Assembly: GCA_021018995.1 (NCBI GenBank) | Contig: CM037590.1 | Span: 105,401,097 to 105,465,096 of the forward strand | Reading direction: 5' to 3' | From: Chloranthus sessilifolius | Taxonomy: Eukaryota; Streptophyta; Magnoliopsida; Chloranthales; Chloranthaceae | DNA length: 64,000 bases | Shown: positions 8,752 through 64,000 of the stretch, one piece after another | Numbering within the stretch: the stretch's first letter is position 1 | Layout of the letters: every line of letters begins with the position of its first letter | Translations under genes and position numbers: made by a program | Notes under the pieces: model-generated | Database searches by the model: none | Seen by the model: the letters and a program-made list of their open reading frames with translations, nothing else | Told to the model about the DNA's origin: nothing

Positions 8752-9019
8752 ATGTCGGAATCGGTGAACAAGGCTCCATCGATAATGTACTCGTACTCAA
8801 ACTCATTTGTGGCCCACCATAATTTAGTTGGGGCAAATTTCCAGGTGGTGGGGGTGGGGGCGACGATTCGCGTGATGACGCGTCCGTCAAGTAAGAGGAA
8901 TCTGATGTGGATGGTGATGATGATGATGAAGGTGTAGGTGGTGGTGGCGCGGTGTTCTTACGCCGAACCGATAGCTTGGAGGTAGCTTTCTTAGAAGCTA
9001 ATCTAGTTTTAGGTGGCAT
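8752..9019 (-). pseudogene. Extra ORF (ORF2-like) of the Tekay-like element, N-terminal part
   Basis: ATG at 9017-9019 opens a frame of 89 codons before the Tat1 insertion. The start MPPKTRLASKKATSKLSVRR is strongly basic, suggesting nuclear localisation, followed by proline/serine-rich low-complexity sequence and LPQLNYGGPQ. A TATA box (9264-9271) and a telo-box-containing leader (9091-9099) precede it. The layout matches ORF2 of the Athila-like elements here (MAPK-type basic start, low complexity, own promoter with the family's LTR motif). The conserved part, if any, lies beyond the insertion, so family membership is unproven. It could instead be a host exon, but its position right after the chromodomain argues for an element gene. 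Confidence 0.5.
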
Positions 9020-9550
9020 TGTGGTCTAAAATTAAGAAAACTAAAAAATCTAGGGCTGCAACAACTCAAATTGAAAGGAAAAATGAAAAACTAGGGTTTA
9101 TCGTAAGCGTTCGATCCGAATAGTTAGGTTTTTGATCCACAAAGCCTTCGAATCCTCGCGGTTTTGGTAGCCAAGGAGAGGAGAAAAACTGGCGCCCAAA
9201 CAAAAGAAAAATAAAAAAATAAACAAACTGAAATTTGAATGGGAAGAAAAATCCCAAATCTGGCTTATATAGGCAAAAATTGATTGATCGGTTTCAAAAA
9301 TCGATTGATCGAGTTTTACAACTTAACATTAGCTTCGCGAAATCGATTGATTGATTAATCGATTTCTAAAATTGATTAATCGAATTGAGCTCGATTAATC
9401 AAAATTTAATGCTTCTAAATTTCTAGGTTTTGCATCTCACTAGCGTGTGCCAGTCGTTCGATCGAACAAAATTTATTGATCAAAATCCAAAATCGATCGA
9501 TCAATTTGGAAATCGATTAATCGGTTTTGACAGAAAGTTAAAAAAAAATT
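9020..9550 (-). promoter_or_regulatory. Internal promoter with ATCGATTGATCG motif array
   Basis: Reading toward the extra ORF: an array of about ten ATCGATTGATCGA-like motifs (9280-9530, for example AATCGATCGATCAATTT near 9491), a TATA box TATATAAG (minus strand of 9264-9271), a leader of about 215 bases with AAACCCTAG (9091-9099, a telo-box common in plant leaders), then ATG at 9019. The same motif array is in this element's LTR at 18785-19095, and in both places the array ends next to a CAGAAA phrase. Confidence 0.6.
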
Positions 9551-9781
9551 ATACTTTTTTTTATTTCCCTTCACTTCCTTCTATTTCCTTGTCAGTTTGC
9601 TTTTGATTTTGTGGAGCATATATTGATCATCCATTTCAAGATGCGATTACCATTAAGCCATGCATGAATCGCACAACGATACATTTAATCATTTCTTGAA
9701 TAAGTTGGCCTAAATGCTCAACTTTTGATTACATAAACGGTTCCAACTTACAAACATACATGTGAAGATACAATTAGTCTC
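9551..9781 (-). other. Spacer between chromodomain stop and internal promoter
   Basis: Contains a minus-strand purine run (about 9553-9590, GAAGGAAGTGAAGGG) that could be a polypurine tract or a relic of one, but no LTR start follows it. Nothing else recognised. Confidence 0.4.
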
Positions 9782-10062: not shown

Positions 10063-11331
10063 GAGGTAATCCAACGCGATACGCTACCTCACCTACACGA
10101 CCCAAAACCTCAAAGGGTCCAAGGTAACGGGGACTCAACTTGCCTCTCTTTCCAAATCTCATAACGCCTTTCATAGGCGATACTTTCACAAACACATGCT
10201 CGCCAACAGTGTAGTCCACACTCGTTCTCTTGATATCGGCATAGCTTTTCTGTCTGCTCTAAGCCGACTTAAGTCTCTCTTTAATCATACGGACCACGAT
10301 AGCGTTATCTTCAAGTAAATCCGGTCCCAAAACAAACTTTTCACCGATTTCTTCCCAATTGATAGGCGATCTACATCGCCTCCCATAAAGAGCTTCGTAC
10401 GGTGCCATTCCAATACTTGTTTGGAAGCTATTGTTGTATGTAAATTCGATCAACGGTAGGTGTTGATCCCATGATCTTTGTAGTTCAAGCATACACGCTC
10501 GAAGCATGTCCTCTATTACTTAGTTCACCTGCTCTGTTTGCCCATCGGTTTGCGGATGAAAAGTTGAACTGAAGTCTAATCGTGTACCCATGCCTTCCTA
10601 AAACTTCTTCCAAAACTTTAAAGTGTATAACGGGTCACGATCTGAGACAATGCTACTAGGATTCTCATGCAGACGTACGATGCCATTCCAATGTTCGTTT
10701 GGAAGCTATTGTTGTATGCGAATTCAATCAACAATAGGTGTTGATCCCATGATCCTTATAACTCAAGCATACACGCTCTGAGCATGTCTTCTATCACTTA
10801 ATTCACCTGCTCAGTTTGCCTGTCGATTTGCGGATGGAAAGCCAAACTAAAATCTAATCGCACACCCATGCCTTCCTGAAACTTCTTTCGAAGCTTTAAA
10901 GTGTATAATGGGTCACAATCAGAGACAATGCTACTAGGAATCCCATGTAAACGTATAATCTCCTTCATATATAATTCCGCGAGTCTTCCTGTTGTGTACA
11001 TCATGTTATAAGGCAAGAAGTGTGTTGACTTGGTTAGTCGGTCCATGACTACCCAAATGGCATTGTATTTTTTTACTGTACATGGTAGTCCAACAATGAA
11101 GTCCATAGAGATTGATTCTCATTTCCACTCTAGTATGGATAGAGGCTGTAATAACCCAGCAGGATGTTTATGATCGACTTTCACCTGCTGACATGTCAAA
11201 CACCGTGACACATACTTGGCCACGTCTTGCTTTAAATCTCTCCACCAGTAATTTTTTCTCAAGTTTTGATACATTTTTGTGCTACTAGGGTGGATCACAT
11301 ATTTCGACTTGTGAGCCTCATCAAGTATAGT
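10063..11331 (-). pseudogene. Integrase remnant with a 278-bp internal tandem duplication
   Basis: Order on the minus strand: HHCC zinc-binding region (DEAHKSKYVIHP and CLTCQQ, about 11300-11180), catalytic core MDFIVGLP (first D, 11106 downward), VSDCDP (second D; usually SDRDP) and FHPQIDRQTEQVN with the catalytic E, then LIEFTYNNSFQTSIGMAPYE and YGRRCRSP. The segment 10681-10958 is repeated as 10403-10680 (both begin GCCATTCCAAT and run to the ATGGGATTCC/GAGAATCC region), with visible divergence, so part of the core is present twice and the protein is disrupted. Frameshifts and stops occur near 10520 and 10800. Confidence 0.8.
10403..10958 (-). repeat. Tandem duplication inside integrase, 2 x 278 bp
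   Basis: Copies 10403-10680 and 10681-10958 align end to end: GGAAGCTATTGTTGTATG, GATCCCATGATC, ACCCATGCCTTCCT and GAGACAATGCTACTAGGA recur at a constant offset of 278. They differ at roughly one site in ten by eye, so the duplication is old. It repeats the integrase stretch around the third catalytic residue. Confidence 0.85.
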
Positions 11332-17327: not shown

Positions 17328-19708
17328 TGTGACAGCCCAGATTTCGGCACCCTGAAACCCGTTCCATCAGCATAACCCTCAAGGTCGTGCCTCATAAGCC
17401 TGCATGAAACATTGGTATAACCAAGCAACAATAAAGCATAAGAACTAAATCAAACTAAATTTCCAGTTCTATATATATATAACCATCAAAATAAGTAATC
17501 CAAAAGATGGTTCTAGTCTCATGCCAACGCATGAGAAAAAGAACTCACCTGAATCATCAGTGACGACACAACAGTCACTCTGGATGGTTCGTCAAAAGAA
17601 TATATCATTGTTTAATTAAATTTTCTCAAAAATAGCTTAACATACTAAGTCGTACAGTACTCTCACAAAACTAAATCAAAGTATGCAGGGGTCCTTTAGA
17701 AGAAGTCCTCGGGAGGGGGCTCCAACTCCTCCTCAGGCACGTAATCCGAATCCTCCGGATCTATGCCTCCCGAAGTAGTAGCAGTCGCAAGCACAAGGCC
17801 TGTGACATATAGTCTAAAGGATTAGCTACATCATAGCTCAATAGGGAAACAACTGAATGAACATACAAGTTAATCTCTCACATGTATTCCATGATATTTA
17901 GCAGCATGATGTATAAATGAATTAGCTAGAAAAGCAATTTAAATGACTGAAAAGATGCTCTGGATGTTATGGTTACTTTACATATTTTCATTTGTTCTCA
18001 ACTTGCTCATATAAGACAATGATTTAGCCTAAAGACTTAAATCATAACTTAAATATTCCCTGATTTACTATAGCATCGGGCACTCGATGGAACACCCTCC
18101 ATCGTCATCTAATCAAATCATTTTCATATCCTTTTTTATTCATTCAATACTACCCAGGTCCCTTTCTCCTAGGCGACAGGGTTTCAGTCTCATACATACA
18201 TACATACATCCCTGGGATGTGCAACAAGTGTACGGATTGGCCGTCGTACCAGTCACAGATATTCTGTCGAGTCAGTCGTGGATATCCCATCACGTCGGTG
18301 GAGTATTCTACAAACCTTAAATATCAAAAGTGCACTACATATAGTTATTCACCGTGTGATTGTGCTAAATATATTATATTAGGCCTTATCAATTTTCATT
18401 CACTTTGCTTTACATTTTCACATACATCCCTGGAATGTCCAACTCAATGCATCACACAGATGCCCTTATCATATTCACATCCCCTGGGGACGTCACATAC
18501 TAATTTTCTTATTTAGTGTTCACTCACACACACCCTTAAGATTCACATTTTTGATACATAAGTATTCATTTTTATATCACTACATACATGCTCTTGCTAT
18601 TAAAATACATGTTCAAGGCGTTCCCTACTTCACGTGTTTAAATTTCTTAAGTGTCAAGTCCAAAGCGTTTCCCGTGCTCACATTCACTTATATGACTTAT
18701 GGTACATCATAGCATAAACAAAGCATCAAGAAAGATGCATAAAAGAGGGTACAAAACCCTCCTAGAACCCCAAAGTTTAAAATAAAAGCCAACAGAAACT
18801 GCTCAAATTGATTGATTGATCTCCAAAATCGATCAATCGAACTCCCAAAATTGATTAATCGATCCCAAATCGATTAATGGAAATTCTGAAATCAATTGAT
18901 CTATTTCTCAAATCGATCAATCGGATTGCCACTTGGAGTGCTCAAACGATTAATCGAAATCCACAAATCAATTGATCGATTTGAAATCGATCAATCATTT
19001 TTGGGCAATTTTGCCCGGCTAACTTCCAGGCCAAAATCGATCAATCAAATTTTCAAATTGATCAATCAATTTTTCAAATCGATCAATCGATTTGGTCAGA
19101 AACCCATCCCCTTGCGGGCATTTCTTATAGCTTTCCTCTCTTTCATTTCTCCTTTCTTTTCTATATTTTTAATTTGCCATTTAACCAATCTATCCTAGAG
19201 TTAATGCACAACAACATATTCATTAAAATCCAACAAAAACTCACCTGAAATCAACCCTTGGTTGATTCAATGGTTTAGCTCAAAGGTTAGGGCTCCTAGC
19301 TCCAACTTCAACGAATTCCAATGCGTCATCTCTAGAGTTAATGCTTGAGCACGCCTTCCAATTCAAATCCACACTAACTCTCTTTACCATTTACTCTCCC
19401 CCTTCCTCTAAACTCTCTCTCTCTCTCTCTCTTCTTAGCTCTCTTCACCAATCTAAGCTTAATAGAAATAACTTCTCCTAAGTTATTTGCTCATTTTTAA
19501 CCCTTCAAGCTTTGGTGTAAAGCACATACACCAACGATAGGTATATGTGATCTCCTACTTAACTCTTATACTACACATACATGCTTATTAACATCAAACT
19601 AAGCTGAAACATAGTAATCAAGTTGATTTTTCACTTGGTCAAACCTATGACCATTTGGGCACGCATCTCAAGGACACTATTCAATGCCAAAATTTTGGGG
19701 GTGTTATA
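17328..19708 (-). repeat. 5' LTR of the Tekay-like element
   Basis: On the minus strand it starts TATAACACCCCCAAAATTTT (canonical TGTAACACCCC) and ends GGGCTGTCACA, 2.38 kb. After removal of the solo LTR it abuts the PBS through GTCT. The minus strand carries a short acidic frame (DPEDSDYVPEEELEPPPED, about 17790-17700), similar in style to the one in the solo LTR. A TATA-like run lies at 17469-17482. The motif array is at 18785-19095. Confidence 0.7.
18785..19095 (-). promoter_or_regulatory. ATCGATCAATCGA motif array in Tekay LTR
   Basis: About fourteen degenerate copies, for example AAATCGATCAATCGAACTC (near 18825), AAATCGATCAATCGGATT (18910) and CAAATCGATCAATCGATTTG (19075), separated by 5-20 unrelated bases. 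It sits 600-900 bases from the LTR start, in U3. The same motif lies upstream of the extra ORF at 9280-9530. Confidence 0.75.
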
Positions 19709-22134
19709 TAAAGAGAGGAAGTTTAGGTGTCTCACAAACTAACCTAAAACTAAGAAAAAATAGAAATAAAAACTACAGCTAAAAGGAAGGGGAAAAGAAG
19801 ATGGATGTAGTGTGAGAAAATAAAGTAAAATGATGAAGAGGTAGACAGCTAAGGTTAAACCAGTTATGCAACTCAGATCTAGAAATGGAAGTGTAGCAGT
19901 CCTTCACTTGGCTACAAGCACAAGTGCAAGGTATAAGAATCTAAATCAACCCATACCACTTAGACTGCTCTTAAGCCTATAATCTGTCCACTTAAATGGT
20001 CACAGACTATCCAATAGAGATGGTCAAATCCCATTGATTAACTCAGAAATCTGACTCAACCCAAAAGAATAGATTGATCTTAAGGCTATACTCTGCCCAC
20101 TTAAATGGTCACAGACTATCCAATAGATTTACTCCATTCAATGAATTAAATCAACCCATGAAAACCATTGTAGACACTATGTTTGTAAGGTACAAGCTCA
20201 TGCATTCATATGAGCAAACAGATCTAGGAAACCAGGTGGAAACCACAAGGAATCTCAGGCTGAATGGAGACTTAAGCTCAGCTGGTCATTGGTACAAAAG
20301 GCCTGTAATGACCTAGCTTACAAGTCTGCAATCACTATAAAACTTAGATCTAACCTCTGATAATGGTGATGCAAAACAGAGGAGAGTTTGAGTCTGCACA
20401 ATCTCTCACAAGGTTACAAGCCCAAGTGCAGAGGATAAGAATCCATCTCAGATCTGTGAGGAAGACCTTCCTTAAGGTTATAGTCTGTCCACTCAAATGG
20501 TCACAGACTATCCTAGAGGCTACCTTCCACACAAGTGATGAGACAGAACACGAAAATTGCTGCTGCCACCATGGTTGCAAGGCTACAAGATCAGGCAACC
20601 ATGGGAGCATCAAATCTATAAAGATCTGTGTAAAAAACATAGGTAAAATACAAATTTAATAGAGCTTTAAACATGACACTTCATTGATTAACAAGGGAAC
20701 TTATAATGATGGCCCTCAAGGCAGCAACATGTGCAAACCCCAAAACTGCTCTTTATCCTTAAACAAAACCCATTACATTACATGAAATAAAACCTAGCTA
20801 TTACATAGAACCTAGCCCAGCATTGCTGTTGTACTAGGGTAAGAAGAAAAGGGAAAAAGAAAGGAGAAAATAAAATCCTAACCCTAAAAAAAAACCTAAT
20901 TTGAGCTAGCTATCCTGGCTATTTACATAACAGGCATATTTTTCTATTTATATAATCCATAGAACACATTACAAGCTTTAGCCAATAAGAAACAAGGGTG
21001 AGGATGTGTAGAGTTGATTTCATGGCCAATCTGTGACCCTTGGATGCTTTGGGAAGTGTGGGACATTGGGATGCATGCCCTAGAAGGTGTGAAATACCCA
21101 AAATATCCTTGGGTGCTGAAATTGACTGCTGGAATTCATGCCTCGCGTAGATGACAGTTTCAAGTATGCACCTCGCTAAGATCTCGCTAGGATCTCGCTG
21201 GGCTGTAACTTCATAAGTTTAATCTCACTGGGATCTCACTGGGTTGAAATGCTTCAGGCATACACCTCGCTAGGCTCTCACCAAGTTGAAAACAACCTTG
21301 TCAGGTTCTCGCCAGGTTTAAAATAGCCTCGTCAGGTTCAAAATACAATATTTTTCACCTCGCCAGGTTCAAATGTAACACAAGATAAATAGATTAACGC
21401 AACGTGTACCAACGCAACACAACACTTTAGCCAGCATAAAATGGTGTAGACTTAAGCAGCTGACGAGGATGATTTTCTTGATGAAGAGCGCTCGCGAGGA
21501 TGATTTCGTAGTTGGAGGATGCTCACAAGGTTGAATTGAAGCGCGCGGGGTCTAGCTCGTATGGATGAGTTACTTCTGAAGAAGAGCTCGCGAGGTTCAT
21601 AATGTAGGTAGCTTCAAGGCTAGCGAGGTTCCTCGACAAGTTGGAATTGTCTTTGAAGCATGCGAGATCTACACGAGGTTTGCGCGAGATGTCGTCTTGA
21701 AGCTCTTTTGCCACTGAGCTGCGCGAGAACTGCGTGATCGATTTAAGTGTTGCAGGCTTGTAAAGTTCACTACAGGTTTAAGTGAACCACTTGAGGACTC
21801 ATTTTTGGTGCTCTGCTGCTATTCATAGTCTGCTACAGCAGCCTCCTCTCTTTAGGTCCACCATCCTTTCATCCTCTTGACTTCTAGGACCCACTTAGGC
21901 ATGTAATATGGTCACCATGGTGTGTGCCACCATGGTGTATCATCGGTTCTTACCTCGGCTCTCAGACTTAGCATTAAAAACTCTCTTCTTTGGCTCTAAA
22001 AAGCATGGACTGCAGCTTTAAGATCTATTTTCCTGCTACCTATAAAACACACTTAAAACACATTATTAATATGATCAAAGGTCCATCAAAGGCTAGGTTG
22101 AGGAGTGAAAAATGATATTTTTTAGTGCTCAACA
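19709..22134 (-). repeat. 3' LTR of minus-strand Athila-like element (Athila1), truncated by Tekay
   Basis: The minus-strand start is TGTTGAGCAC at 22134, preceded by the PPT; the plus-strand Athila LTR starts TGTTAAGACC. The TATA box is the reverse complement of 20946-20955. Phrases such as TGGTCACAGACTATCC occur three times (about 20001, 20109, 20494) and match the plus-strand LTR near 52315 and 52740 in reverse. The distal end is missing because the Tekay-like LTR begins at 19708. Its U3 motif (CTCGCTAGG/CTCGCGAGG, 21130-21745) differs from that of this element's other LTRs. Confidence 0.8.
21130..21745 (-). promoter_or_regulatory. CTCGCTAGG/CTCGCGAGG motif array in Athila1 3' LTR
   Basis: Recurrent ATCTCGCTAGGATCTCGC, CTCGCCAGGTT, GCTCGCGAGGATGATTTC, GCTCGCGAGGTTCA and GCGCGAGA phrases across 600 bases in U3. 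The central CG lies in a palindromic context (CTCGCGAG). Confidence 0.7.
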
Positions 22135-23640: not shown

Positions 23641-23659
23641 ATGTTAGGTTGGAGATCTC

Positions 23660-25440: not shown

Positions 25441-25442
25441 CC

Positions 25443-28296: not shown

Positions 28297-28314
28297 TCCC
28301 CGATAGCGACGACA
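28297..28314 (-). other. Primer-binding site of Athila1, decayed
   Basis: Minus-strand TGTCGTCGCTATCGGGGA matches the plus-strand element's PBS TGGCGCCGCTGTCGGGGA at all but three bases, each an apparent C-to-T, G-to-A or G-to-T change. This tRNA-Asp-type site is the Athila norm. The LTR edge CAACA-AGTTTTT is shared by both. Confidence 0.7.
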
Positions 28315-28322
28315 AAAAAACT

Positions 28323-50676: not shown

Positions 50677-50874
50677 TGTTAAGACCTGAAAAGTACGACT
50701 TTTCACCCCTTAACTTAACCTTTGATTAGACCCTTAGCCATCTAATAAGTTCTTGTTAAGTGTTTTATGTAGGTAATAATCAATAGTGAAATAAGGCCAG
50801 GAATCCTGCTAAGGAGCTTGTTTTGGCACCACAAGTCCCTCAGAAGGATGAACTCTGAATCCAGACCTGAAATG

Positions 50875-51600
50875 AGCCTCGCGCAGCTGACCCAAGCTTT
50901 AGAAGATTCAGGAGAAATATGCCTCGCACAGTCCAACTGAGCTTCCCAAGACTTTACAAACAACTTCTCGCACAGTTGAGTGACTGAAGAGCTTCAGAAG
51001 CATAAACTTGCGCAGCTCTCACGAAGCTCAAGAGTAGAACACATCATGCAGTCTCGTGTAGTTCAAAGCAGACCTCTCTCAGCCTCGCGCAGTTTGCTCA
51101 AAATGGCTGAGGAGAGAGAGCTTCAGAAGACGCTTCACGCAGTAGCCGCGGGATGCAAATTTCAGAAGAGAACTCCTCGCGTAGTTCTCGCGCTATTCAA
51201 GAAGAAAGCATCCTCGCGAAGACAGAGCCATCCTCACGAAGATCAATTAAGACATGAACCTCGCGCAGTTCAGAACTCATTAGAGCCTCACGAGGAAACT
51301 CGCGAAGTCCATTGAAGAGAAGTGCTCGCGAAGTTCTCGCGCTATTCAAATCCATCCTCGCGAAGATCAACCCAGAGAATGCACAGCTACCTCGCGACTG
51401 TGTGAACTCCAACCCCGCGACATCTAAGGCTTTGATGTCTACACAACCTCGTGAAGCCCAATCCAGCGAGAGCGCAATTCTCTATCGCGCGACTGCCTGA
51501 AGAGCAAACCAAGGCAACCTCGTGACGGTTGAAGCTTCAATGTCAAACCATCCTCGTGAAGAGCAAGAGCTACCACGCGACAAGTCTGGGAAACAATAGC
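50875..51600 (+). promoter_or_regulatory. CTCGCG motif array in Athila 5' LTR
   Basis: About thirty sites such as CCTCGCGCAG, TTCTCGCGCTATTC, CTCGCGAAG, CCTCGCGAC and GCGAGAGC, spaced roughly 20-40 bases and mostly followed by pyrimidine-purine phrases like CAGTT or AAGTTC. Many include the palindrome TCGCGA. The array recurs in the 3' LTR (61862-62585) and upstream of ORF2 (55500-55720). Confidence 0.8.
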
Positions 51601-51795
51601 TACCTAGCAAAGCTCTGAACTTCAACTTTCATCTCTTCAATAGAGGACCTTCTGGGAATTTCCAGTGATTAGGGCACACACTCCCACGATTAAATCTCTA
51701 TGCACACGCCTCGAGGCATCCAAGGATCACTATTAGACCATGTGGCATCATTAAAATTAGGGTTTCCTAACCCTAATGCGCCTCCACACCACTGC

Positions 51796-51803
51796 TATAT
51801 AAA
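51796..51803 (+). promoter_or_regulatory. TATA box of Athila LTR
   Basis: TATATAAA in CTGCTATATAAACCC, 1.1 kb into the LTR; repeated in the 3' LTR at 62692-62699. Confidence 0.7.
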
Positions 51804-53278
51804 CCCATACTTAGCTTAGGTTTAGACATCCTGGAAAATCTTAGAAATCTTAGAACAAATTTGGGAACACGTCTCATCTCTTAGAGATTTGATCTGAGAT
51901 CGTTTTTCTTTTCTTTTGTAGCTGTAAGTAGTTTTCTTTTTCTTTTACCTTCTCTCCATAGTCCAGACTTGTCTTATGCATTTTGAACTAGTTTAATGGA
52001 AGTTTTGTAATAGGATTTGTACTTTATGGGATTTGTGTTTGAATGTGATCTGCTCTGTGCAAAGCTGCTGCCTTGTGATCCGCCATTGCTTTGGCTGTGA
52101 TTCAAAGCAATGGAGGACTGATTCTAAGGGCCACTTAGATCCAAGTGACCTGTGTGTCTGGGCTATCATGGTCATATACAGCCTTAGCCCCACCACAGGA
52201 CCCACTGGATCTGAAATCCCCATGGGAGCTTGAGCTGGTAGCCTTGTGACCATGGTGGTGGCAGCGATATTCTTATTTTGTCTTGGGCTCCGTGAGGAGG
52301 ATGGCTTCTGGGATAGTCTGTGACCATTCAAGTGGACAGGTTATAGCCTTAGGGTGATTCTAATCCACTGATCCAAGATGGATCCTTCTTCTTTGCACCT
52401 GAGCTTGTATTTGCCTGGTGGGAGATTGTACAGAGGCAGACTCCCCTATATTTGTATAGATCTGCTATTAGATGTTAGATCTGATCTGGTTATAGAGATT
52501 GTAGGCTTGTGACTGGACAATTGTAGCCTCACTCAAGCAATGGACAACTAGATCGAAGGTTGTACTCAATCTCTTGCTGTTCTATGTGTCTGGGCTATCA
52601 TGGTCCTATACAGCCTTAGCCCCACACATAGAGCTTTAGAAGTTGAGGTTCCCTATGGATTCTTTAGCTGGTAGCTTGGATGAAATAGTGCCTACAATGA
52701 TTAACTTGTTTTGATCCATCCCTGGATTGTGGTTCCCCTATGGGATAGTCTGTGACCATTTGAGTGGACAGGTTATAACCTTAAGGGATTGAATCATGGC
52801 AGAGAGATGGGTTGGATCCTTTCTCCTCAGTGGTGATAACGTAGCCATTGGACAGGATTTCTATAACATCAGATCTGAATCTGAGTTACAAAACTCCTCT
52901 GATCTAGGCTCAATAACATACTTCTCACCCTTTTATATTTATTTTTCACACTCCATCCATCCTCTCAACCCTTTCTGTAGTTCAGACATTAGGCTACCTT
53001 AGGATCTGTAAACTAAGTGACCTTAAACTCCCTTCCCTTAAGGCGCGGATCAGTGAGTCGATCTGGAGGGACTACTAAAGATGGCTCCCTTGGAGCTATA
53101 GATCATCTTTCCCTGTGGGAGAAACTCTTACTTATCAAAACTTGCCACAATGGACCCTGTATCTTGCAGGTCTAGGACTCCCCAGTTGTGCTGATTTCAT
53201 CCCCTGTTTTATTTTGATTTTAAATTTCTTTTACCACAAACAAATAAAGAAAGCACAGCTGGGGTAGCAACAAGTTTT

Positions 53279-53296
53279 TGGCGCCGCTGTCGGGGA
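53279..53296 (+). other. Primer-binding site, Athila tRNA-Asp type
   Basis: TGGCGCCGCTGTCGGGGA follows the LTR end CAACA by AGTTTT. This is the standard Athila PBS with minor change. Confidence 0.85.
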
Positions 53297-53640
53297 GAGT
53301 TGATCTATTAGTAGACCCTAAGTTTTTATAGTTTTATTATTCTTTGGTAGTGAAGAATAATTGATACTGCTGATGCATTTGTGAATTTTTTTTGCAGATC
53401 TAGACAGCATTAGTGAAGGACAGTTGGACTGCAATTGGAGCTTCGCTACCTCTGTTTGCAAACTCTCTAACTTTTAAAACTCTGTCTATCTTTCTTGAAA
53501 ATTCTCTAGCAGTATCTAGGATAGTTGTAAATGTATTCTTTGAATAGCTGTAAATTAGTTAGATAAAATTTGTTAATTGTAAAGTTATTCATTTGCAATG
53601 GGCCTGCAAGAAGCTCTCCTTGTTGTTGGTGTGCTTGTAT
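53297..53640 (+). other. Athila leader between PBS and gag
   Basis: T-rich untranslated leader; no ORF of note. Confidence 0.5.
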
Positions 53641-55177
53641 GCTAGGGAGGAGATCTCTAGCCCTACTTTAGAGCCTCTTAACCCTGAGTTAGAAAGGGGA
53701 AGGAGACTTAGAAGAGACAGGCACACCACAGGAGAGCCCCCAAGTGAATCTGTGACAGCAAATATGGGTGAAGAACAACCCAGAACTCTCAAGGAGTTGA
53801 ATGCTCTGGATAACTATAACTCCCCTTTTAGCATTCAATTCCCTAATGTTCAGGGGAATTATGAAATAAAAACTTCAATCATCCAAATGCTGCCCTCTTT
53901 CCATGGGCTTAGTAAGGAGGACCCGTACAAGCATATTGATCAGTTCTTGGCCTTGTGCACCACTTTTAATATCACTGGTTTGGGACCTGAGGCTACTAGG
54001 CTCAGACTCTTTCCCTTCTCTCTGAAGGATAGGGCTGTGACTGTTGACCACTCTTCCCAACAATAGCATTGCTTCATGGAAAGACCTGCAGACCAAGTTC
54101 CTGACCAAGTTCTTCCCTGAGACCAAAACTAGCCAATTGAGGAAGACAATTCTTGCTTTTGCCCAAGCCCCAACTGAGGATTTTAATCAAGCCTGGGATA
54201 GGTTTAAGGAAATGCTCAAACAATGCCCCCACCACAAGATCCCAGACTGGTAGCTTGTTCAAAGCTTCTACAATGGGATTGATGAAAAAAGTAGAGATAC
54301 GGTTGATGCCTCTTGTAGTGGCACTTACATGCACAAAACTGCTGATGAGGCATGGGAATTGTTTGAGGTGATTAGTGAAAATGCTTTTCAAAAGCTATCC
54401 TTGGAAAGAACTAGTCAGGAGTCTGAGTCAAAAGTGGGGCCTGCTACATTGACAAGAGGAAACGTTTGTGAGGTGTCTGGGAACAATTACCTGCAGCTGC
54501 AGATGGCAAACCTCTCTATGAAGTTTGACAAATTACTGACTGTGATGCAACCCAGAAGGGCTGCTCATGTGGCGGACGCATGTCTGATATGCCAATCCCC
54601 ACAGCACATAGTGGAGGAATGTCCATCTGCAGAGCAATATCCTGAATTGGTTTTAGAACATGCTACTGCTGCTCAATCTTATGGCCAGCAACAATCTGAG
54701 GGCTACAATAGACAGCCATATGGATACCAGCACCAAAATGCTGGTTACCAATGGAGAGACCACCCAAATCTGAGGTGGAGGCAAGACAATTATATGCAGC
54801 CCCAACAGATGTTGGTTATACCTCAAAGGCCACAGCAACAGTTCAATCAAGGGAATGCCCCTAGGTCTAACTTCCAGCACCATCAGCAACCCCATCAGCA
54901 ATAAAATCAATTGGTCTTACCCCCATCTCAACCCAGACATACTTCTTTCAAGGACCAGGTCTTGACCTCACTACAAAACCTGGGTTCCTTGGCTCAGACT
55001 GTGAATTCTCATGGTCAGAGCATCAAGAAGATGGAAGAACAAATTGGCCAACTAGCGAATACCTTAGCCAAAAAAGAAGAGAGAAGGCTGCCCAGTCAAC
55101 CAGTGGTTAATCCCAAGGGCCAATTTTTGATTGGTGAAGGATCCTCAAACCCTGAAGGGGATCTTTCATTGAATTGA
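53641..55177 (+). pseudogene. Gag of the plus-strand Athila-like element
   Basis: Reads PNPELERG-like sequence, then MGEEQPRTLKELNA (ATG 53764), QMLPSFHGLSKEDPYKHIDQ, RLRLFPFSLKDRA (gag domain), TKFFPETKTSQLRKTILAFA, FNQAWDRFKEML, DEAWELFEVISENAFQ, an intact CCHC knuckle CLICQSPQHIVEEC (about 54583-54624) and a glutamine-rich tail. The frame shifts near 54037, and stops occur at 54251-54253 and 54902-54904, each consistent with a CAG/CAA-to-TAG/TAA change. The frame ends at 55177 after GEGSSNPEGDLSLN, where the protease should begin, so pol is cleanly missing. Confidence 0.85.
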
Positions 55178-55992
55178 TGCTAAGAACTGTGCACTTTGTA
55201 TGTTATGTACTTTACTGTTTATAGGAATTTTTAGTGATCCTGTTGGAGTCTGAGTTTAGTGCTTTATGCCTACTTTTATTCCTGTTCCCTTTGATTGATA
55301 ATTTCAAGTGATTGAATGATGATGGTATTGTTTGAATGCTTTCCATGATGTGTGAATTTAATGCTTTGAGAGTATGAGAATTTTTGAATGTTTTGTAATG
55401 CTTATGGGTGTCCCTGGAAGAGAGCCTGTGAGAGCATCCACCCACAAAACAAAGGTCAAAAGGCTGACTAGTGGGTGTGTGAATTCTGACTCTGCTAAGC
55501 CATCGCGAGGTTGTGAAAATTTGGTTTGGTTTCCTCTTATGCAGTTCATAAAGAATTACTTTGCTTTGCTGTCGCGAGTTTCAGATATAGTTGTGTGGGC
55601 TTCCTCGCGCAGTTTAAATGAACATCCAATCTCGCGACCCATTCATGCTTATCAAGCGAGCGGATATTTTTAAAGCACGCCAAGCCTCGCGATATTTAAA
55701 ATCCTACCCCGCGCTGCTTTTCTTTACTGCTTTCTCTTTCCTCTCCTGCCAGCGAAACCCTAGCTCCCACTCCTCTCAATCTCTCTCCTCCAGCATCCTG
55801 TCTATAGTTCATCGCTCACTTTGAAATTCTAGATTTTTGTTCTTAAAGCTTCCATCAACAGTTGCCCCCTACTAGGAGCTCCTACGGTCTACCGTACATC
55901 AAATTGAACAGAACCCTAACTTTTAGGGTAAGACTCAGCTCTTAATTTTTTCTTTCAAAATTTCAACTGCACACTCACCAAGGAGAATCTTA
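55178..55992 (+). promoter_or_regulatory. Internal promoter-like region with CTCGCG motifs upstream of ORF2
   Basis: Contains CATCGCGAGGTT (55502), GTCGCGAGTTT (55570), CCTCGCGCAGTTT (55603), TCTCGCGACCC (55629), CCTCGCGATATTTAAA (55685, overlapping a TATA-like ATATTTAAA) and CCCCGCGCTG (55709). A pyrimidine-rich leader follows with a telo-box AAACCCTAG at 55755-55763 and CTCTCAATCTCTCTCC, then the ORF2 ATG at 55993. The motifs equal those of this element's LTRs. Confidence 0.65.
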
Positions 55993-58900
55993 ATGGCTCC
56001 TAAAAGTGCACCTGTGAAGAGAGCTAGGGACCAGGCCACCGTGGAGCCTGCCCCTAAGAAAGCCAAGTCCTCTACGGCACAATAAAAAGGGAAGGAGGTG
56101 GTTCCTGAGGTGGCTGAACAAACACCTGATTACTCTACACCCTCTGAGCTCCTCATTTCCGTTCCCTTAGAGCCTGAAGCCATTTTTGATATATCTTTCT
56201 TTGAAACTGAGCCGTTGTCAGCACCTGCCATTGAGTTCTTGGGCAAGGCTGGTTTGATCCCCTTGATGAAAATGATTCCTGCACTAGCCTACCCTAGGTT
56301 AGTGCAACTCTTTTACCATCCTTAGGGTCGAGGCATACACACATGGGCAGCCAGCTTCCTTGTGTTAGTTGACAATTTTGAGATGCTACTCATTAGCGTT
56401 GATTCTTTGAAGTCATGGGCATCTCTGCCATTTTTTATCCCAACTGTGGTTATGGTTCCCCTGTGAGTGCCCCCATTGACACCATTGCACAGGCCCTTAC
56501 CAGAGGTTTGAACGCCACAGGGGACTCCATCAGAAAAAGAGATTTGGATCCTAAATTGTTGTTCATTGATCAAGTGCTGAGGAAGAATATTTATTGCTCC
56601 GGCCATCAGCAAGAGAGGAGGATACCAATTGCTGATGCTCTCTATTCCTTCTCTCTGGGCCATGGATTTAATGCTGTATGGTTGATTTTTGAGGCCATGA
56701 AGGATATGATGGTGAAGCTCGGGCTGCAAAAGAAGATCCACACTCTCCCCTATGGAAGACTCATCACCAAATTACTTCTGAGGGGAGGGTACAAGATACC
56801 AGTGGGGGAGTTATCTGCTGACCTCACTCCCACCACTTTTGCCAAAAGACAATGGGGGATCAGCAGGAGTCTGATGGATCCTGAGAAGAAGAAGAAGGCT
56901 GAAGCTCAGGTTGTTTCTGAGCAAGGAGAGGGAACTGCTGTGGTAAAGGACACCCCTGCCCCCAAAAAGAAGGCTAAAGCCCCTGCTCCAAAGAAGGTGG
57001 TGCAAGCTTCTGTCACCTCTGCTTCTGCAGCAATACCTCCATCCACCACACTTGCCCCTCCATCAGTTTCTTTGCCTATTCCATCTCTCCCTTTCCCTCT
57101 CTTATCTCCCTTTTCCATTCCACCTCCCCCTATGATTCGTTCCTGGGTGGAAAGTGTTAAACCCCATGACAACACTCCCCCTTCACCCACCTTACCTCAA
57201 TACACAGCCCTAGTATCTCCAACATCATCTGACCTAAACCCTGACAGCCCTCCCCTGGTATCCTACATTAAAAAGAAGACCTCTCATACAACCCCAGCCA
57301 GATCCTTACCTCAACCAACCACCCCTATCATTCCCACAGATACCCCACATATTGACCCAGCCACCATCCCAACCATCCCTACCTCACCTCCACTCCCAGA
57401 CCTTGACTTTAACCTAGCCACTACTTCCGGATATCAGGCCTTCATGACTACCTTGCTTGATACCCTGCCAACCCATGATATCCCTCTCCCAGATTCCCCA
57501 CTCCCTTCACAACATCACTCACCAGACCTTTCATCTTCTCCCCCTACAACTTTCCATCATGCCCCCACTTCTCCTTTCCAACCTGTTCCCTCCTCTTCTC
57601 ATACTCCACCCCAACCAACCTCAGATACCCTTACCCATATCCTTTCCTTAATACATGACATCCAGAACCAGCTATCCACCACAACACAAACCCAAGACCA
57701 AATGCAAACTGACATCACCAACATAAAATCCACCCTTCAAAAATTGACAAACCCACCCATCTCTACACAACCTCCTACCACCTCCCTCATCCAGCCCCCT
57801 TCCACCTCTGACTCCACAGTGCAACCAGAACTCACCCCAATTGACTTACCTACACCCTTCACCCTCCAAGACACCATACCCCACCACTCCTTCCCCACTC
57901 TACCTATCCTTCCCCCACTCATATTACCTCCACCACAATTTACCAACACTTCTACCCAAACAGACCCCATTCCTTTCCCATCCACCCTTCCCATTCAACC
58001 CCACATATTTGTAACCCCACCACTTCCATTTCGACCCTTCACCATTTCATTTTTCCCTTACCCAAAACCATTCACCTCCACTAACCATCCTTCTTTTACT
58101 TTTCCACCCATGTCTTCCATTCCACCCCTTATCCTACCCCCTCCTCAATTCATTGACCATTCAACACAGACTGCCCCAGCCACTTCCACCCCTCCTCTAG
58201 ACTTCATCACTACAGCCTCCACTTTACCCCACTAGGATCAATCACCTTCTACTTCTTCCACTCCATTTCTACCAATCTTACCCAGACACTCCTATTACAC
58301 CCCTCCCTACTTCGCCCTCCTCCATGCCATGAGGGACAATGCCTATATCAAGAGGGATGTCCTGAGGGGCATGGCACAACTTCGCCAATCCATTGAGTCC
58401 CCTTGGCTGCAGAAGCTGAGTGACTTGAAGCTTGCTCACAGCGAGCAGCTGAGAGATATTTCCAAGGGGTGGGAGCCAATTTTGGAGACACTCAATGCGA
58501 ACAAGGCTGCGACAACTTACTACAGAATGACTACGAAGATGGAAAAAGCCAATGCTGAAATGACAAAAAAGAAAGCCAGGTTGTTAGAAAGGAAACTGAA
58601 TAATGCTCAGGAGATCAACAAACTCAGTAAGGAGCTTTCAGATACCAATCTCCTATATGCTACCAAGAAAATTGAGATTTTGGAACAAAGGGTGCCTTCC
58701 TACTATCCCAACCAATTCAGGCCACCCCTCTCGCCACAACACCCCCTGAGGCCCCATCTTCCTCCACACAACCAAGCCCAACTTCTTCCACTCCCTCTGC
58801 CCCTACACCTACACAACCTGTTCCCCCACCTCCCTGACCCCAACTCCATGCCTCCTCCTGCTCCTACTCAAGTTCCTGCTCCTGCTAAAGTCCCTACTCC

Positions 58901-59776
58901 AGCTCCTGCTCCTATCTCAGTGCCTCCCCCTGTTTAATCTCCTGCCCCCAAAAGAAAATGGACTCCTTCCAAGAAACCTCCCACCTCCAAAAGAGCCACT
59001 GCAGTCCAAAAAGGAAAAAGGCCAGCCCCTCCATCCCCACCTCCAAAGGTCACCAGAGCTTCTGCTCAGGATGATCCCCATGGTCGCCTACTTTCCAAAG
59101 AGGAACGCAGACAGGCTGCTGCTGCCCTTGGATTGGATCCCACTGAGCTTTTTCCTTCTGACTCAGACTCTGATTCTGCACCACCTATGGATCCCAGTGC
59201 CAAGACTCCTATTGATGCTCCTTCATCAAGCCCTGCTGAACAAACCTATCCTCCGAGAAGGAAAGTTACAGCTAAAAGAACTTCTCACACTGCTGTCTCT
59301 CTAAAAATTAGAAAAGAAACATCTGCCCAGTCTGAGGAGGCACCACCAATGAGCCAGCCAGTGAAGGGGAAGAGCCCTGCCATTCCTGCAGCAAAGGAAC
59401 AAGAAGTCTTTTGTGGCTACCCCTAAGCTTGACAAAGGGAAAAGTCCTCTCCTGCCTCAGGTGAAAGAAAAAGATAAATCCCCTGTTGTCCCTCCTGAGC
59501 CAGAACAAGCCCAATCCCCTCTCATTTCCCTCACCGGCCTGGAAGGGCCCAAAAGGGAAGAGTCCCAAAGGAAAAAGTCCTATCAAATCCCCTGAGCCAA
59601 CCACAGATAAATCTTCAGAGATCCCTCCTCAACCAAAGACAAGAAAAATGAGGGTCAGGGCACCAACCATACCCAAAACTGTTGCCCAAAGAAAGGAAGA
59701 GAGGGAATGAAAGAAAAAAGAGGAAGAGGCTTACCTTCAAGAGCATGCCAAGAAGATGGGTTGGGACAAGTTTTGA
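55993..59776 (+). pseudogene. ORF2 of the plus-strand Athila-like element
   Basis: ATG at 55993-55995. The N-terminus is basic (MAPKSAPVKRARDQ, PAPKKAKSS). A globular region follows: LIPLMKMIPALAYPRLVQLF, then, after a stop (56323) and frameshift, IDQVLRKNIYC, ADALYSFSLGHGFNAVW, LPYGRLITKLLLRGGYKIP, resembling the domain labelled putative plant transposon protein. Residues beyond are P/S/T-rich for about 400 codons (STQTDPIPFPS), then a coiled coil (KMEKANAEMTKKKARLLERK), another proline-rich stretch, an acidic SDSDSDS segment and a K-rich tail ending KKMGWDKF. Stops also at 56083, 58233, 58935 and 59708; frameshifts near 59410 and 59500. Original length about 1260 codons. No catalytic motif is seen. 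Confidence 0.75.
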
Positions 59777-60004
59777 TCCAGACTCTGATTAGATTGTACC
59801 TAGGATTTTTTCTGTTTCTACACTCTGTTGCTTCTATTTTCTTTTAGTTTGTACATTTCTCATTTTTAATAGATTTTCCTCTTTTGTCATTACTATTTTG
59901 CTTTGTCTGTTGTGTGTTTTGTTCAATGTTATTTTCTTTTCTTTTTACCCTCAATAAATCTGCTGCAAATTCACTTTGAATCAGTGAGGACACTGCTCCT
60001 CATA

Positions 60005-60035
60005 GGTTGGGGGGTGTGGCAGGCAGACCCTGCCA
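60005..60035 (+). promoter_or_regulatory. Purine tract and stem-loop after ORF2
   Basis: GGTTGGGGGGTG followed by TGGCAGG (60017-60023) pairing with CCTGCCA (60029-60035). The same arrangement ends ORF2 in the minus-strand units, with compensating arm changes. Confidence 0.55.
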
Positions 60036-61651
60036 ATGGAATAGTTAGCCTAAGTGCAGCAGAGTCATCTGAGTAATATGGAAATGGATCTATGTTCACT
60101 TAAGAATCATGACAAATAAGAAATTTAAAGTTTCTGCAAACTTTAGACATTATAAACTTTTAATATTTCACATTTTCATGATGATATCACCAAGGAAACT
60201 CACTTGTATCAGCACTTAGTGAATCATTAGAGAGAGAAAAAGGTGAGGACATACTTAAAAGTTCAAAGGAAGACCATAACCAGTGAGAATTGGGCCTATA
60301 AAAAATTTTTCCATCCTTTGAGGAGTGACTAAGGCAATTTCTTCTAGTTCTAAAGATTTGGTCGAAACGTGCTCACTAGAAGTTAGGCAACTCCAAGTTG
60401 AAACAACTGACAGCACTCATGAGATTTAGGAAAGGATCAAGGCCTTCTCTTGGACAGTTTGAGCCTAATAAGACCAACCCTAAAGCAACTGCCCTTGTCC
60501 ATACCCCCTTTGAGCTTTAAATCCTGAATTTCTTTAAAATACACCTGAGTACTTGTACCTGAACCTATGAACCTAATTCAGTCTACCCTCACTCTGAGAA
60601 TTCAGAAGGTAAAGGAGAAAGAGTTGAAGATGGACTAGCTATGGTCAACATTAGGTGAATGGAGAAGAAGTATCTCAAAATTCTGACAGTATGGTAACTG
60701 AGAACATGGTGGCATTTCAGAAAAGTAAAAATAAAAATAAAAGAAGAAATTTCATCAAAAAGAAACAAAAATAATAATGAAGAGGAGTATGAGAGGAGTC
60801 AAGAGGATCTTTCTTTTGGAAAATCAAAATCAAGAAGAGAAACTGATCACTTCAAATATGAAAATCTCAAAGAAGAAGAAAGGAGCTAAAATCAAGAAGG
60901 TGAAGTCATGAATCACCTCTTCCACCTACTGATTTCTCAATTTTGAACCCCTTTTCAACCTTCCATTCTTTTTAACCCCACTCCATAAGCCACATTCCAG
61001 CCCTTGTGATCCAAAGTTGAGTGAGCTGTCATGTGGAGATAAAGAGTTATCCAATCTATGGTAAGGATGTGTCAATGATGTCAGCACTTGAGAACTCTGC
61101 CTATGCTCATGCTTACAGACCCATTTGGGGGATGTAACTGCTCTTGAGCCTGAGAGAAAATGAACCCCTCAACAAGACCCTTATGAGAGTATGCCCTGGA
61201 AAGTTTTGGGTATGATCTTGACTGCATTATGTATGACCTATAACCTAATTTTTAATCTGATGATGAGCTCAGTGTTGGCATACACTTGTGCAGTTTTCTG
61301 TGGTTGTAAATTGATTGGAAATGTTGTGCATTCATGAGAAGTTTATGCTATTTAAATTACTGTGCAACCAATGGATTAAATTTCTTTTATGTTTACTGAT
61401 TCAAGAGTAAACTAAGTCTGCTCCTTGACTGCTCACTTGATGATATTGCACTTTTGTTAACTGTTTCATTGAGAAGTTTATGGGTATCTTCACTGAAAAC
61501 CCTCAGGAGACTTCACTCCTCCACTAGGGATCACCTAGGGGTTTAAAAGGCTTGGTACATATGCTAAATGTATCCATGCTCCCTACGAAAGTGGCATTTA
61601 ATTTTTGTAGTAGATTTAATGTAGCTTTGCTAAGGGACTAGCAAAGATTAG
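60036..61651 (+). other. Conserved 3' non-coding block of Athila
   Basis: Reverse-orientation equivalent of 22135-23640 and the unit blocks. No ORF. Shared phrases include AGAAGTTAGGCAACTCCAAG, GCCTATGCTCATG, GGTTTAAAAGGCTTGGTACA and GTAGGGAG-type ends. A-rich stretch at 60720-60780. Confidence 0.65.
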
Positions 61652-61662
61652 GTTTGGGGGTG
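61652..61662 (+). other. Polypurine tract of the plus-strand Athila-like element
   Basis: GTTTGGGGGTG directly precedes the 3' LTR start TGTTAAGACC at 61663. Confidence 0.75.
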
Positions 61663-64000
61663 TGTTAAGACCTGAAAAGTATCACTTTTGATCCCTTAAC
61701 TTAACCTTTGATTAGACCCTTAGCCACCTAATAAGTTCTTGTTAAGTGTTTTATGTAGGTAATAATTAGCAGGGAAATAAGGCCAGGAATCCTGGTAAGG
61801 AGCCTATTTTGGCACCAGAAGTCCTTTAGAAGGATGAACTCTGAATCCAGACTTGAAATGAGCCTCGCGCAGCTGACCCAAGCTTTAGAGGATTCAGGAG
61901 ATATATGCCTCGTGCATCCAACTGAGCTTCCCAAGACTTTACAAACAACTTCTCGCGCAATTGAGTGACTGAAGAGCTTCAGAAGCACAAACTCGCACAG
62001 CTCTCGTGAAGCTCAAGAGTAGAACACACATCGTGCGCCTCGCACTAAATCAGACTCTCTCACCTCGCAGCTTGCTTAGAACGGCCGAGGAGAGAGAGCT
62101 TCAAGACGCCTGCAATCGTCAAAGAGTCGTGGATGCAAATTTTAGAAGAGAACTCCTCGCGCAGTTCTCGTGCTATTCAAGAAGAAAGCATCCTCACAAA
62201 GACAGAGCCATCCTCATGAAGATCAATTAAGACATGAACCTCGCGCAGTTTAGAACTCATTAGAGCCTCGCGAGGAAACTCGCGAAGTCCATTGAAGAGA
62301 AGTGCTTGCGAAGTTCTCGCGCTATTCAAATCTATCCTCGTGAAGATCAACCCAGCGAATGCGCAGCTACCTCGCGACTGCGTGAATTCCAACCCCGCGA
62401 CATCTGAGGCTTTGATGTCTACTCAACCTCGCGAAGCCCAATCCAGCGAGAGCACAATTCTCTACTGCGCGACTGCCTGAAGAGCAAACCAAGGCAACCT
62501 CACGACGATTGAAGCTTCAATGTTAAACCATCCTCGCGAAGAGCAAGAGCTACCATGCGACAAGTCTGGGAAACAATAGCTACCTAGCGAAGCTCTGAAC
62601 TTCAACTTCCATCTCTTCAGCAGAGGACCTTCTAGGAATTTCCAGCAATTAGGGCATGCACTCCCACCCTAATGCGCCGCCACACCACTGCTATATAAAC
62701 CCATACTTAGCTTAGGTTTAAACATCCTGGAAAATCTTAGAAATCTTGGAACAAATCTGGGAACACGTCTCATCTCTTGGAGATTTGATCTGAGATCGTT
62801 TTTCTTTTCTTTTATAGCTGTAAGTAGTTTTTTTTTTCTTTTTCCTTCTCTCCATAGTCCAGCACTTGCTTGCTATGTCTTTGTATACATTTTGAACTAG
62901 TTTAATAGAAGTTTTGTAATAGGATTTGTACTTTATGGGATTTGTATTTGAATGTGATCTACTCTGTGCAAGGCTGCTGCCTTGTGATCCGCCATTACTT
63001 TGGTTGTGATTCAGAGCAATGGAGGACTGATTCTAAGGGCCACTCAGATCCAAGTGACCTGTGTGTCTAGGCTATCATGGTCATATACAGCCTTAGCCCC
63101 ACCACAAGACCCACTAGATCTGAAATCCCCATGGGAGCTTGAGCTGGTAGCCTTATGACCATGGTGGTGGCAGTGATATTCTTGTTTTGTCTTGGGCTCC
63201 GTGAGGAGGATGGCCTCTGGGATAGTTTGTGACCATTCAAGTGGACAGGTAGGTTATAGCCTTAGGGTGATTCTAATCCACCGATCCAAGATGGATCCTT
63301 CTTCTTTGCACCTAAGCTTGTATTAGCCTGGTGGGAGATTGTACAGAGGCAGACTCCCCTATATTTGTATAGATCCGCTATCAGATGTTAGATCTGATCT
63401 GGTTATAAAGATTGTAGGCTTGTGACTGGACCATTGTAGCCTCACTCAAGCAATGGACAGCTAGATCGAAGGTTGTACTCAATCTCTTGTTGGTTATATG
63501 TGTCTGGGATATCATGGTCCTATACAGCCTTAGCCCCACACATAGAGCTTTAGAGGTTGAGGTTCCCTATGGATTCTTGAGCTGGTAGCCTGGATGAAAT
63601 AGTGCCTATAATAATTAACTTGTTTTGACCCATCCCTGGATTGTGGTTCCCCTATGGGATAGTCTGTGACCATTTGAGTGGACAGGTTATAACCTTAAGG
63701 GATTGAATCATAGCAGAGAGATGGGTTGGATCCTTTCTCCTTAGTGGTGATAACGTAGCCATTGGACAAGATTTCTATAACATCAGATCTGAATCTGAGT
63801 TACAAAACTCCTCTGATCTAGGCTCAATAACATTCTTCTCACCCTTTTATATTTATTTTTCACACTCCATCCATCCTCTCAACCCTTTCTGTAGTTCAGA
63901 CATTAGGCTACCTTAGGATCTGTAAACTAAGTGACCTTAAACTCCCTTCCCTTAAGGACTGCCAAATCTGTAGTCAGACCTAGAGGGACTACTAGAGAGG
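61663..64000 (+). repeat. 3' LTR of plus-strand Athila-like element, runs off the window
   Basis: Matches the 5' LTR from its first base; 2338 bases are inside the window, so about 260-300 more should follow. Relative to the 5' LTR it lacks about 83 bases after ACTCCCA (near 62666; compare 51687-51770) and carries an extra AGGT at about 63249. The motif array is at 61862-62585 and TATATAAA at 62692-62699. Several CG sites of the array have become TG or CA. Confidence 0.88.

Follow-up and report, generated by a model that had tools for sequence, protein, structure and literature searches.

Element-specific palindromic boxes repeated in long terminal repeats (LTRs) are known from the Sireviruses, a group of Ty1/copia retrotransposons, in which Bousios et al. 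(2010) placed many of them in the upstream half of the LTR (PMC2829016; this and the other papers are cited from extracts of their text). Linker copies of these boxes lie upstream of the ENV-like gene in 77 of 79 cases, the box core holds a CG, CpG islands are present and an internal promoter has been suggested; the boxes were called absent from classic retrotransposons (PMC2829016). The DNA treated here is a stretch of 64,000 nucleotides from Chloranthus sessilifolius (assembly GCA_021018995.1, contig CM037590.1, positions 105,401,097 to 105,465,096 of the forward strand), referred to as the window, which consists of nested LTR retrotransposons within a 2.17-Gb plant genome. Its Athila, Tekay, and Tat elements carry arrays of short, family-specific dyad motifs, both in the U3 part of the LTR and at a second, internal place. 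A preliminary description of this DNA had stated that nothing like it was known in LTR retrotransposons, which is wrong in view of the LTR and pre-ENV boxes of Sireviruses (PMC2829016); the present case is an extension of the 2010 observation, not the first one.

The parallel originally drawn was with the VANDAL elements and their VANC proteins, for which family-specific short motifs form non-coding clusters and differ between related families (PMC5735166, PMC10398659). It holds to the extent that family-specific motifs clustered in non-coding DNA are found here too. LTR-retrotransposon-encoded factors acting like VANC have been speculated upon, not shown, in a 2026 paper (PMC12844716). In foamy viruses, the LTR and an internal promoter are governed by one element-encoded transactivator, Tas (PMC8670036, PMC4929722). 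Athila, Tekay, and Retand elements have additional open reading frames (ORFs), some of which carry nuclear localisation signals or may bind DNA, and CpG islands occur in Del LTRs (PMC7264820, PMC11728184, PMC11963269, PMC4029996). In the open-licence literature, no paper was found on an env-like transactivator of a plant LTR retrotransposon with self-recognition binding sites. The foamy virus tas gene lies downstream of the internal promoter, and a 2016 paper by Bousios reportedly deals with the palindromes of maize Sireviruses.

The observation of family-specific arrays common to U3 and interior is confirmed, with four of four U3 arrays and four of four internal arrays found near the places first reported. 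The U3 motifs were derived de novo by palindromic expectation-maximization (EM), each U3 separately. In the Tekay element (minus strand), the 5′ LTR U3 array at 18785-19095 (ATCAATCGATTGAT / AATCGATNNATCGATT, the former being the EM motif) contains 12 position weight matrix (PWM) sites, compared with 0.14 expected, and the internal array upstream of ORF2 at 9270-9530 contains nine sites of the same motif (0.11 expected). For the family called Athila-A, also on the minus strand, EM yielded AACCTnTCGAnAGGTT in the U3 of LTR1 (29400-30060; 24 sites, 0.33 expected), the 5′ LTR of the minus Athila, and the LTR1 motif recurs in the internal, pre-ORF2 array at 24813-25205 (15 sites, 0.20 expected). 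The plus-strand Athila has a AACTTCGCGAAGTT-like motif of CTCGCGA type, with 22 sites at 50875-51600 in the 5′ LTR U3 (0.36 expected) and three PWM sites in the internal array upstream of its ORF2 at 55500-55720 (0.12 expected). On the Tat U3s, EM did not recover the long dyads and gave negative scores; these dyads were read off the sequence as TGGCGCAACTAWTAGTTGCGCCA for Tat2 and GGGCGTATATAWTATATACGCCC for Tat1, mismatches being scored against a Markov background. Tat2 (plus strand) carries its dyads in the 5′ LTR U3 at 47889-48060 and again in the leader at 49810-49954, with three PWM sites in the latter for 0.08 expected. The internal sites exceed expectation in all four families, Tekay, Athila-A, plus Athila, and Tat2.

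Some details of the preliminary description had to be revised. The unit it gave as GGCGCAACTATTAG has 0 exact matches, the real unit being a dyad of about 23-25 bp, approximately TGGCGCAACTA-W-TAGTTGCGCCA. The cores vary across families (TCGA, CGCG, ATCGAT, or GGCG...CGCC arms), and the label 'CG-centred' fails for Tat, in which the CGs sit in the outer arms. Recurrence of one motif within an element is true of the 5′ LTR of the minus Athila and untrue of its 3′ LTR, 'LTR-B', whose sites are of AACCTCGCGAGGTT type (the EM motif of that LTR). The position of the internal array just before an extra ORF applies to Athila and Tekay; the Tat2 array belongs to the 5′ leader after the primer-binding site (PBS). 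The Tat1 LTR (~7171-8752), absent from the original list, carries its own dyad, GGGCGTATATAATATATACGCCC, and its 3′ LTR U3 dyads (GGGCGTATATAWTATATACGCCC; 7557-7776, plus strand) occupy the same place as those of Tat2 with a different motif.

By shared k-mers, each internal array clearly resembles its own U3 more than any other. The z score for shared 8-mers between internal array and cognate U3 is 12.0 in Tekay, 15.7 in Athila-A, 6.4 in plus Athila, and 10.6 in Tat2, compared with at most 2.5 for off-diagonal pairs and at most 1.4 for four control regions; the 7-mer version gives 5.1-13.1 on the diagonal and at most 3.3 off it. When the LTR-derived models were run over the window outside the U3s, the best 250-bp bin was the cognate internal array in four of four families. 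Region by region, no model matches the Tekay and Athila-A internal arrays as often as that of their own U3. In the internal array of plus Athila, the plus and LTR-B models score equally (three sites each), and the 8-mer test favours plus. Two models have no internal array in the window: LTR-B reaches its best bin, 3, at the minus and plus Athila arrays, and Tat1 its best bin, 2, at the Tat2 leader. The Tat2 model also has three matches in the Tat1 U3, the outer arms being common to both families.

The cleanest case of LTR and internal copies going together is this Tat1/Tat2 pair, whose LTRs are partly alignable and bear different dyads at the same place. The three Tat2 relatives fetched, among 40 matches listed, all have the Tat2 dyad in both U3 and leader, with leader dyads spaced 47-48 bp apart; in two of these leaders, the best match of the Tat1 motif has 7 mismatches. 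The Tat1 leader lies outside the window, and its position was predicted beforehand by arithmetic from the Tekay and Tat2 layouts. At the predicted place (L074, 481 bases), there are four Tat1-type dyads with 2, 4, 2, and 3 mismatches to the Tat1 motif and 8-10 to the Tat2 motif. They are spaced by 48, 47, and 48 bp, and each aligns with a Tat2 leader dyad. Identity in the alignment of the two leaders is 23/45 in the inner cores and 200/346 outside; as cores and flanks are not told apart by such values, it is the motif matches and the spacing that carry the claim. Tat1 and Tat2 differ in the inner half-sites, in both arrays. With up to two mismatches allowed, the Tat1 21-mer matches 21,234 places forward and 21,120 in reverse genome-wide (2 and 0 for the reversed control); forward and reverse matches overlap because the pattern is near-palindromic, and near-exact sites of the 21-bp core number at least about 21,000. 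Among the first 100 matches listed, all exact and on one chromosome, 24 pairs are 46-49 bp apart, 22 are 1,839-2,091 bp apart, and none falls at 250-1,750 bp, the pairs being overlapping and not independent. The separations of 47 bp and ~1.9-2.0 kb are those expected of U3 and leader arrays.

Relatives of the other families agree with this pairing in the copies examined. For Athila-A, 40 of 1,853 candidates were scored and 20 stretches were fetched. Six full-length copies, picked by two same-strand LTR matches 10.7-14.3 kb apart, all have the internal Athila-A cluster, with 14-17 sites each, ~5.7-5.8 kb ahead of the U3 array of the 3′ LTR. One of these copies (L011) also has four LTR-B-type sites that overlap the internal cluster. 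The other 14 stretches were guessed from one LTR side, and a further Athila-A cluster is present in six (L018, L019, L020, L022, L027, L028; some of these are other LTRs) and missing from eight. The Tekay additional ORF has at least 40 scored genome loci including the window copy, the other full-length ones being 79-90% identical. Upstream of such diverged relatives, the Tekay motif is present in 12 of 12 regions, and with five more regions in 17 of 17 relatives fetched. For Tekay elements with both parts among the matches listed, U3 (nine regions) and internal array agree in eight of eight. Because all these copies carry one motif, they test retention and not switching. For the plus Athila, four of eight guessed stretches turned out to be the pre-ORF2 region; they are 94-96% identical and contain CTCGCGA-type sites (one is cut off), but are near copies and no independent tests. 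A more distant Athila (L040), whose 3′ part is 78% identical to that of the plus element over 1.8 kb, shows CTCGCGA-type sites by eye in both places, which are its only CpG-rich windows. A CTCGCGA-type cluster in L016 was considered as a mismatched internal array and rejected: it follows shortly after an LTR-start match and is, therefore, most likely the U3 of another element.

The arrays have the look of candidate binding sites. In a phasing test that sought the best period over 8-16 bp in 11 arrays, with jittered spacings as the null, 7 of the 11 gave a best period of 10.4-10.6 bp (p ≤ 0.016). Athila-A site distances are mostly 20-23, 30-32, or 52-54 bp, which are near-integer numbers of 10.5-bp turns; the LTR1 U3 array and the internal array are both phased at 10.6 bp (R 0.68 and 0.72), and the spacing of the LTR-B array and of the L022 arrays of other Athila LTRs behaves alike. 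Spacer identity at the repeat lags of Athila-A is 0.19-0.42, which is random-like. As the spacing of sites is kept between random-like spacers, selection on spacing, with the sites on one face of the DNA, is suggested, with an old duplication as a less likely source. Among the four Athila-A LTRs, half-sites also vary less than spacers (10.4% versus 19.5%, Fisher p 0.005). The CpG retention of ten arrays, for which values are given below, counts in favour of such sites as well.

Taken together, the clusters of each family are best read as sites for one factor, probably dimeric, which would act on the LTR and on an internal promoter; a probability of roughly 70% is given to this reading. In U3, one cluster would precede the TATA box of the LTR; the second would lie within the element, ahead of the additional ORF (Athila, Tekay) or in the leader (Tat). 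Both would be read by the same factor, so that a change of its specificity would entail a change of both clusters, and families would differ in their words at the same places because a single factor must use both. The dyads, their spacing, their placement above TATA-like boxes, and the motif switch would all follow from a dimeric factor acting on both clusters. Its most likely function would be to activate the LTR promoter in concert with an internal promoter serving the additional ORF; alternatively, it might protect both promoters locally from silencing. A TATA-like box occurs ~200-290 bp below the U3 array in seven scanned LTRs of six types, as found with a loose pattern used without chance control. 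The internal arrays are candidate promoters. A clear TATA box directly under an internal array is seen only in Tekay (TATATAAG, 9264-9271, minus strand).

In its preferred version, which is put forward only tentatively, the factor would be encoded by the additional ORF, in a circuit like that of foamy virus Tas. Three additional ORFs with lysine/arginine-rich N-termini follow internal arrays in Athila and Tekay: the 5′ part of the Tekay ORF (8752-9019, minus strand), cut by the Tat1 insertion; the stop-interrupted, lysine-rich N-terminal remnant of ORF2 in the minus Athila (23891-24373, minus strand); and the plus Athila ORF2 region (55993-58235, plus strand), with a basic N-terminus from 55993, stops inside and an open frame at 56415-58235. 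In Pfam, the only notable match of the ORF2 pieces is PF20167, in the plus Athila frame and below the cut-off (E 0.0012), and ORF2 matched no DNA-binding family. A protein search with ORF2 returned no homologue (0 of 1315 candidates at E ≤ 0.001), and viral contigs scanned with four proteins gave no relative. It is tentatively possible that Ty3/gypsy-encoded proteins read the family dyad in the LTR and internal promoter, with protein and arrays coevolving as a password. If so, each family would have its own feedback switch or escape from silencing, and cross-activation of relatives would be limited. As a separate observation, PF20167 scored 150 of 13,856 candidates in the genome, many with open frames of 395 residues. 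Of five loci selected in this way, one resembles the window Athila and four were dropped for showing no similarity to the window; because these four are unlike the window elements, other elements may carry the domain.

Several results weigh against the single-factor reading. The joint motif switch rests on one family pair. Two of the four internal arrays lack a TATA box below them, and a third, that of plus Athila, has only TATTTAAA; the internal array of Tat sits in the leader instead of ahead of an extra ORF. The best bin of the plus Athila model (three sites) is within the simulated maxima (up to 4). At L040, the two arrays have 16 8-mers in common, which ranks only third among the window pairs of the locus, and de novo EM gives negative scores there. 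Regarding phasing, the 11 arrays behind the count of seven are not all independent, the L022 b arrays hold recent tandem duplicates, and the Tekay U3 value comes from a register adopted once the first had given p 0.62 over the range. Single Tekay copies have best periods from 10.0 to 10.8; no phasing at 10.5 bp is seen in the U3 of plus Athila (R 0.26; p 0.28 over the range), the Tekay internal, L040 internal and L040 U3 arrays are not significant over the range, and the 47-48 bp spacing of Tat is a non-integer number of turns. The remainder of the Tekay LTR also keeps its CpG (observed/expected, o/e, 0.72). Mean LTR-internal spacer similarity is above shuffles in Athila-A (6.61 versus 5.60 ± 0.10 of 18) and Tekay (7.55 versus 6.00 ± 0.19 of 18). 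Half-sites are no more constrained than spacers when the two plus Athila LTRs are compared (9.8% versus 8.6%), which is expected of neutral decay after insertion and gives no support.

Who would supply a factor is a question on which host and element compete. That host transcription factors bind the arrays, each family having adopted another factor needed by both of its promoters, is a serious possibility, if somewhat short of an even chance: the U3 arrays are upstream of TATA-like boxes, and the motifs appear loosely like plant transcription-factor sites (CGCG boxes, the HD-ZIP-like CAATNATTG, and the ARF-like TGTCGA). Sirevirus boxes searched in PLACE likewise gave mainly stress-factor sites (PMC2829016). 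Nevertheless, Tat1 and Tat2 share array places and the 47-48 bp leader spacing, and their inner half-sites differ in both arrays; given this shared layout, one factor with drifting specificity seems easier than a swap of host factors. An element-encoded protein might instead act as VANC does, binding the arrays and removing the DNA methylation of its own family, which appears unlikely here. Family-specific short motifs are clustered in non-coding DNA as in VANDALs (PMC5735166), three additional ORFs have the basic N-termini described above, and a sunflower Athila clade shows methylation drops near its edges (PMC12844716). CpG is also retained, with o/e values of 0.55-2.58 in ten arrays versus 0.05 and 0.07 in two coding stretches and 0.20-0.21 in the remainder of the Athila LTRs; in six Athila-A copies, values are 0.61-0.72 in arrays and 0.06-0.11 elsewhere. 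However, 'palindrom' does not occur in the extracted text of PMC5735166 and the sites here are dyads, and CGs within the arrays are being lost among the copies here: at 21 of 35 CG positions, another Athila-A copy has TG/CA, and the two plus Athila LTRs differ from each other at 27.8% in the central CGCG. As the central CG is the fastest-changing part between copies, CpG retention looks like selection between transpositions and not like lasting protection of old copies.

Explanations that dispense with a DNA-binding factor fare worse. The dyads could act as RNA hairpins in packaging or dimerisation, or as siRNA-producing foldbacks, and 7 of 10 array stretches do fold more stably than their dinucleotide shuffles (25 per stretch; z -4.3 to -7.1). 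No excess folding is seen in the other three, plus U3, plus internal, and Tat2 internal (z -0.1, -0.7, and -0.6), for which reason RNA structure was rejected as the single explanation, and the helical-turn spacing kept in 7 of 11 arrays is relevant to DNA, not RNA; this account is very improbable. Still lower is the chance that the internal array is a duplicated piece of LTR, or that both arrays arose by tandem-repeat slippage, without function. Recent tandem duplicates in some arrays (L022), short tandem repeats found by TRF in several U3s, and the raised mean spacer similarity between LTR and interior would fit such an origin. Similarity within the LTR is raised too (6.13 in Athila-A, 7.47 in Tekay), which points to motif edges, and the most similar spacer pairs between LTR and interior stay at or below the 95% maximum of shuffles (12 versus 12 and 12 versus 13 of 18), so that duplication of an LTR block was rejected as a full explanation, though means are raised. 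The random-like spacer identity at repeat lags in Athila-A and the Tat pair, in which motifs differ in both arrays with the 47-48 bp leader spacing kept, also speak against it. Overall, the interpretation first proposed is partly supported, namely as regards arrays that resemble binding sites and LTR and internal copies that vary together.

As to the elements themselves, the lineage labels Athila and Tat are assumed here from structure and the preliminary description. The Tekay element has a Ty3-type gag, protease, RNase H, and chromodomain in Pfam, which place it in Ty3/gypsy; it lies on the minus strand, the 5′ LTR being on the right-hand side of the element. Its additional ORF starts at 9019 and is broken by Tat1, whose 3′ LTR occupies ~7171-8752. 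A same-strand match to the Tekay LTR (92% identity) lies ~11 kb left of the window, and in relatives the additional ORF is ~2 kb before the 3′ LTR, with LTRs ~10 kb apart; given this match and this layout, the arrays at 9270-9530 and 18785-19095 most likely belong to one Tekay element split by Tat1. Its presumed 3′ LTR also carries the Tekay motif. In the pol region (10396-10955), a 278-bp stretch is tandemly duplicated at 85% identity.

The Tat2 5′ LTR spans 47.5-49.06 kb and the plus-strand Athila 50677-64000, with a further U3 array in its 3′ LTR (61850-62620, plus strand). Its 53563-59426 part has gag-like and ORF2 frames, and among the frames inspected no reverse transcriptase or integrase was seen; pol-less Athila families exist in Arabidopsis (PMC2410132). 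Athila-A forms four tandem LTRs at 28321-46118, in units of 5.2-5.3 kb, with minus-strand U3 arrays also in LTR2 (34680-35380), LTR3 (39950-40660), and LTR4 (45150-45860). A decayed PBS and gag come after LTR1; units 2-4 have their LTR joined straight into ORF2 and lack PBS, gag, and pre-ORF2 array. Because these units share the LTR-ORF2 fusion, the tandem array probably spread after a deletion. The minus Athila (19700-28600) has an Athila-A 5′ LTR, an LTR-B 3′ LTR (~22138 downwards; U3 array at 21150-21800, minus strand) and an ORF2 that is largely missing. As the 3′ LTR differs, a clean single family was ruled out, and the element is a chimera formed post-insertion, or a recombinant.

The same word is kept by arrays kilobases apart, and sister Tat families differ at both places. 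Self versus non-self recognition by a DNA-binding protein thereby becomes directly testable in plant LTR retrotransposons, and poorly understood additional ORFs, env-like and others, acquire a candidate job. The arrangement may also help explain methylation differences between clades of one lineage.

In comparison with the known systems, VANDALs are DNA transposons without LTRs, for which the binding protein is known and tested; the factor of the present arrays is a putative one. Foamy virus offers a parallel for two promoters of one retroelement served by one factor. In the present elements, a motif is common to LTR and interior, the internal promoter being a putative one with a clear TATA box in Tekay only. 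Foamy virus differs as an animal retrovirus whose Tas is a demonstrated transactivator, for which the additional ORFs would be the candidate counterparts here. In the extracts of the additional-ORF papers (PMC7264820, PMC11728184, PMC11963269, PMC4029996), the ORFs are not linked to an LTR/internal motif, and the sunflower Tekay ORF is at the 5′ side (PMC11728184), whereas that of the window lineage is in sense orientation 3′ of pol, with its own TATA-like box. The Sireviruses come closest. There as here, a palindromic, element-specific motif is repeated in U3 above a TATA box and clustered before an additional ORF (true of Athila and Tekay, the Tat cluster being a leader one), array CpG is retained (by o/e here), and words of Table 3 such as CGGTCGACCG and ACAATCGATTGT resemble the motifs of the window (PMC2829016). 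The CGG-CCG core of the Sirevirus boxes is, however, not found in the present motifs, and Ty1/copia elements are concerned there, Ty3/gypsy elements here. A joint switch between sister families and helical spacing are not seen in the extracts of that paper (PMC2829016). As far as seen, what is new is thus the presence of such arrays in three Ty3/gypsy lineages, the joint motif switch, and the helical spacing.

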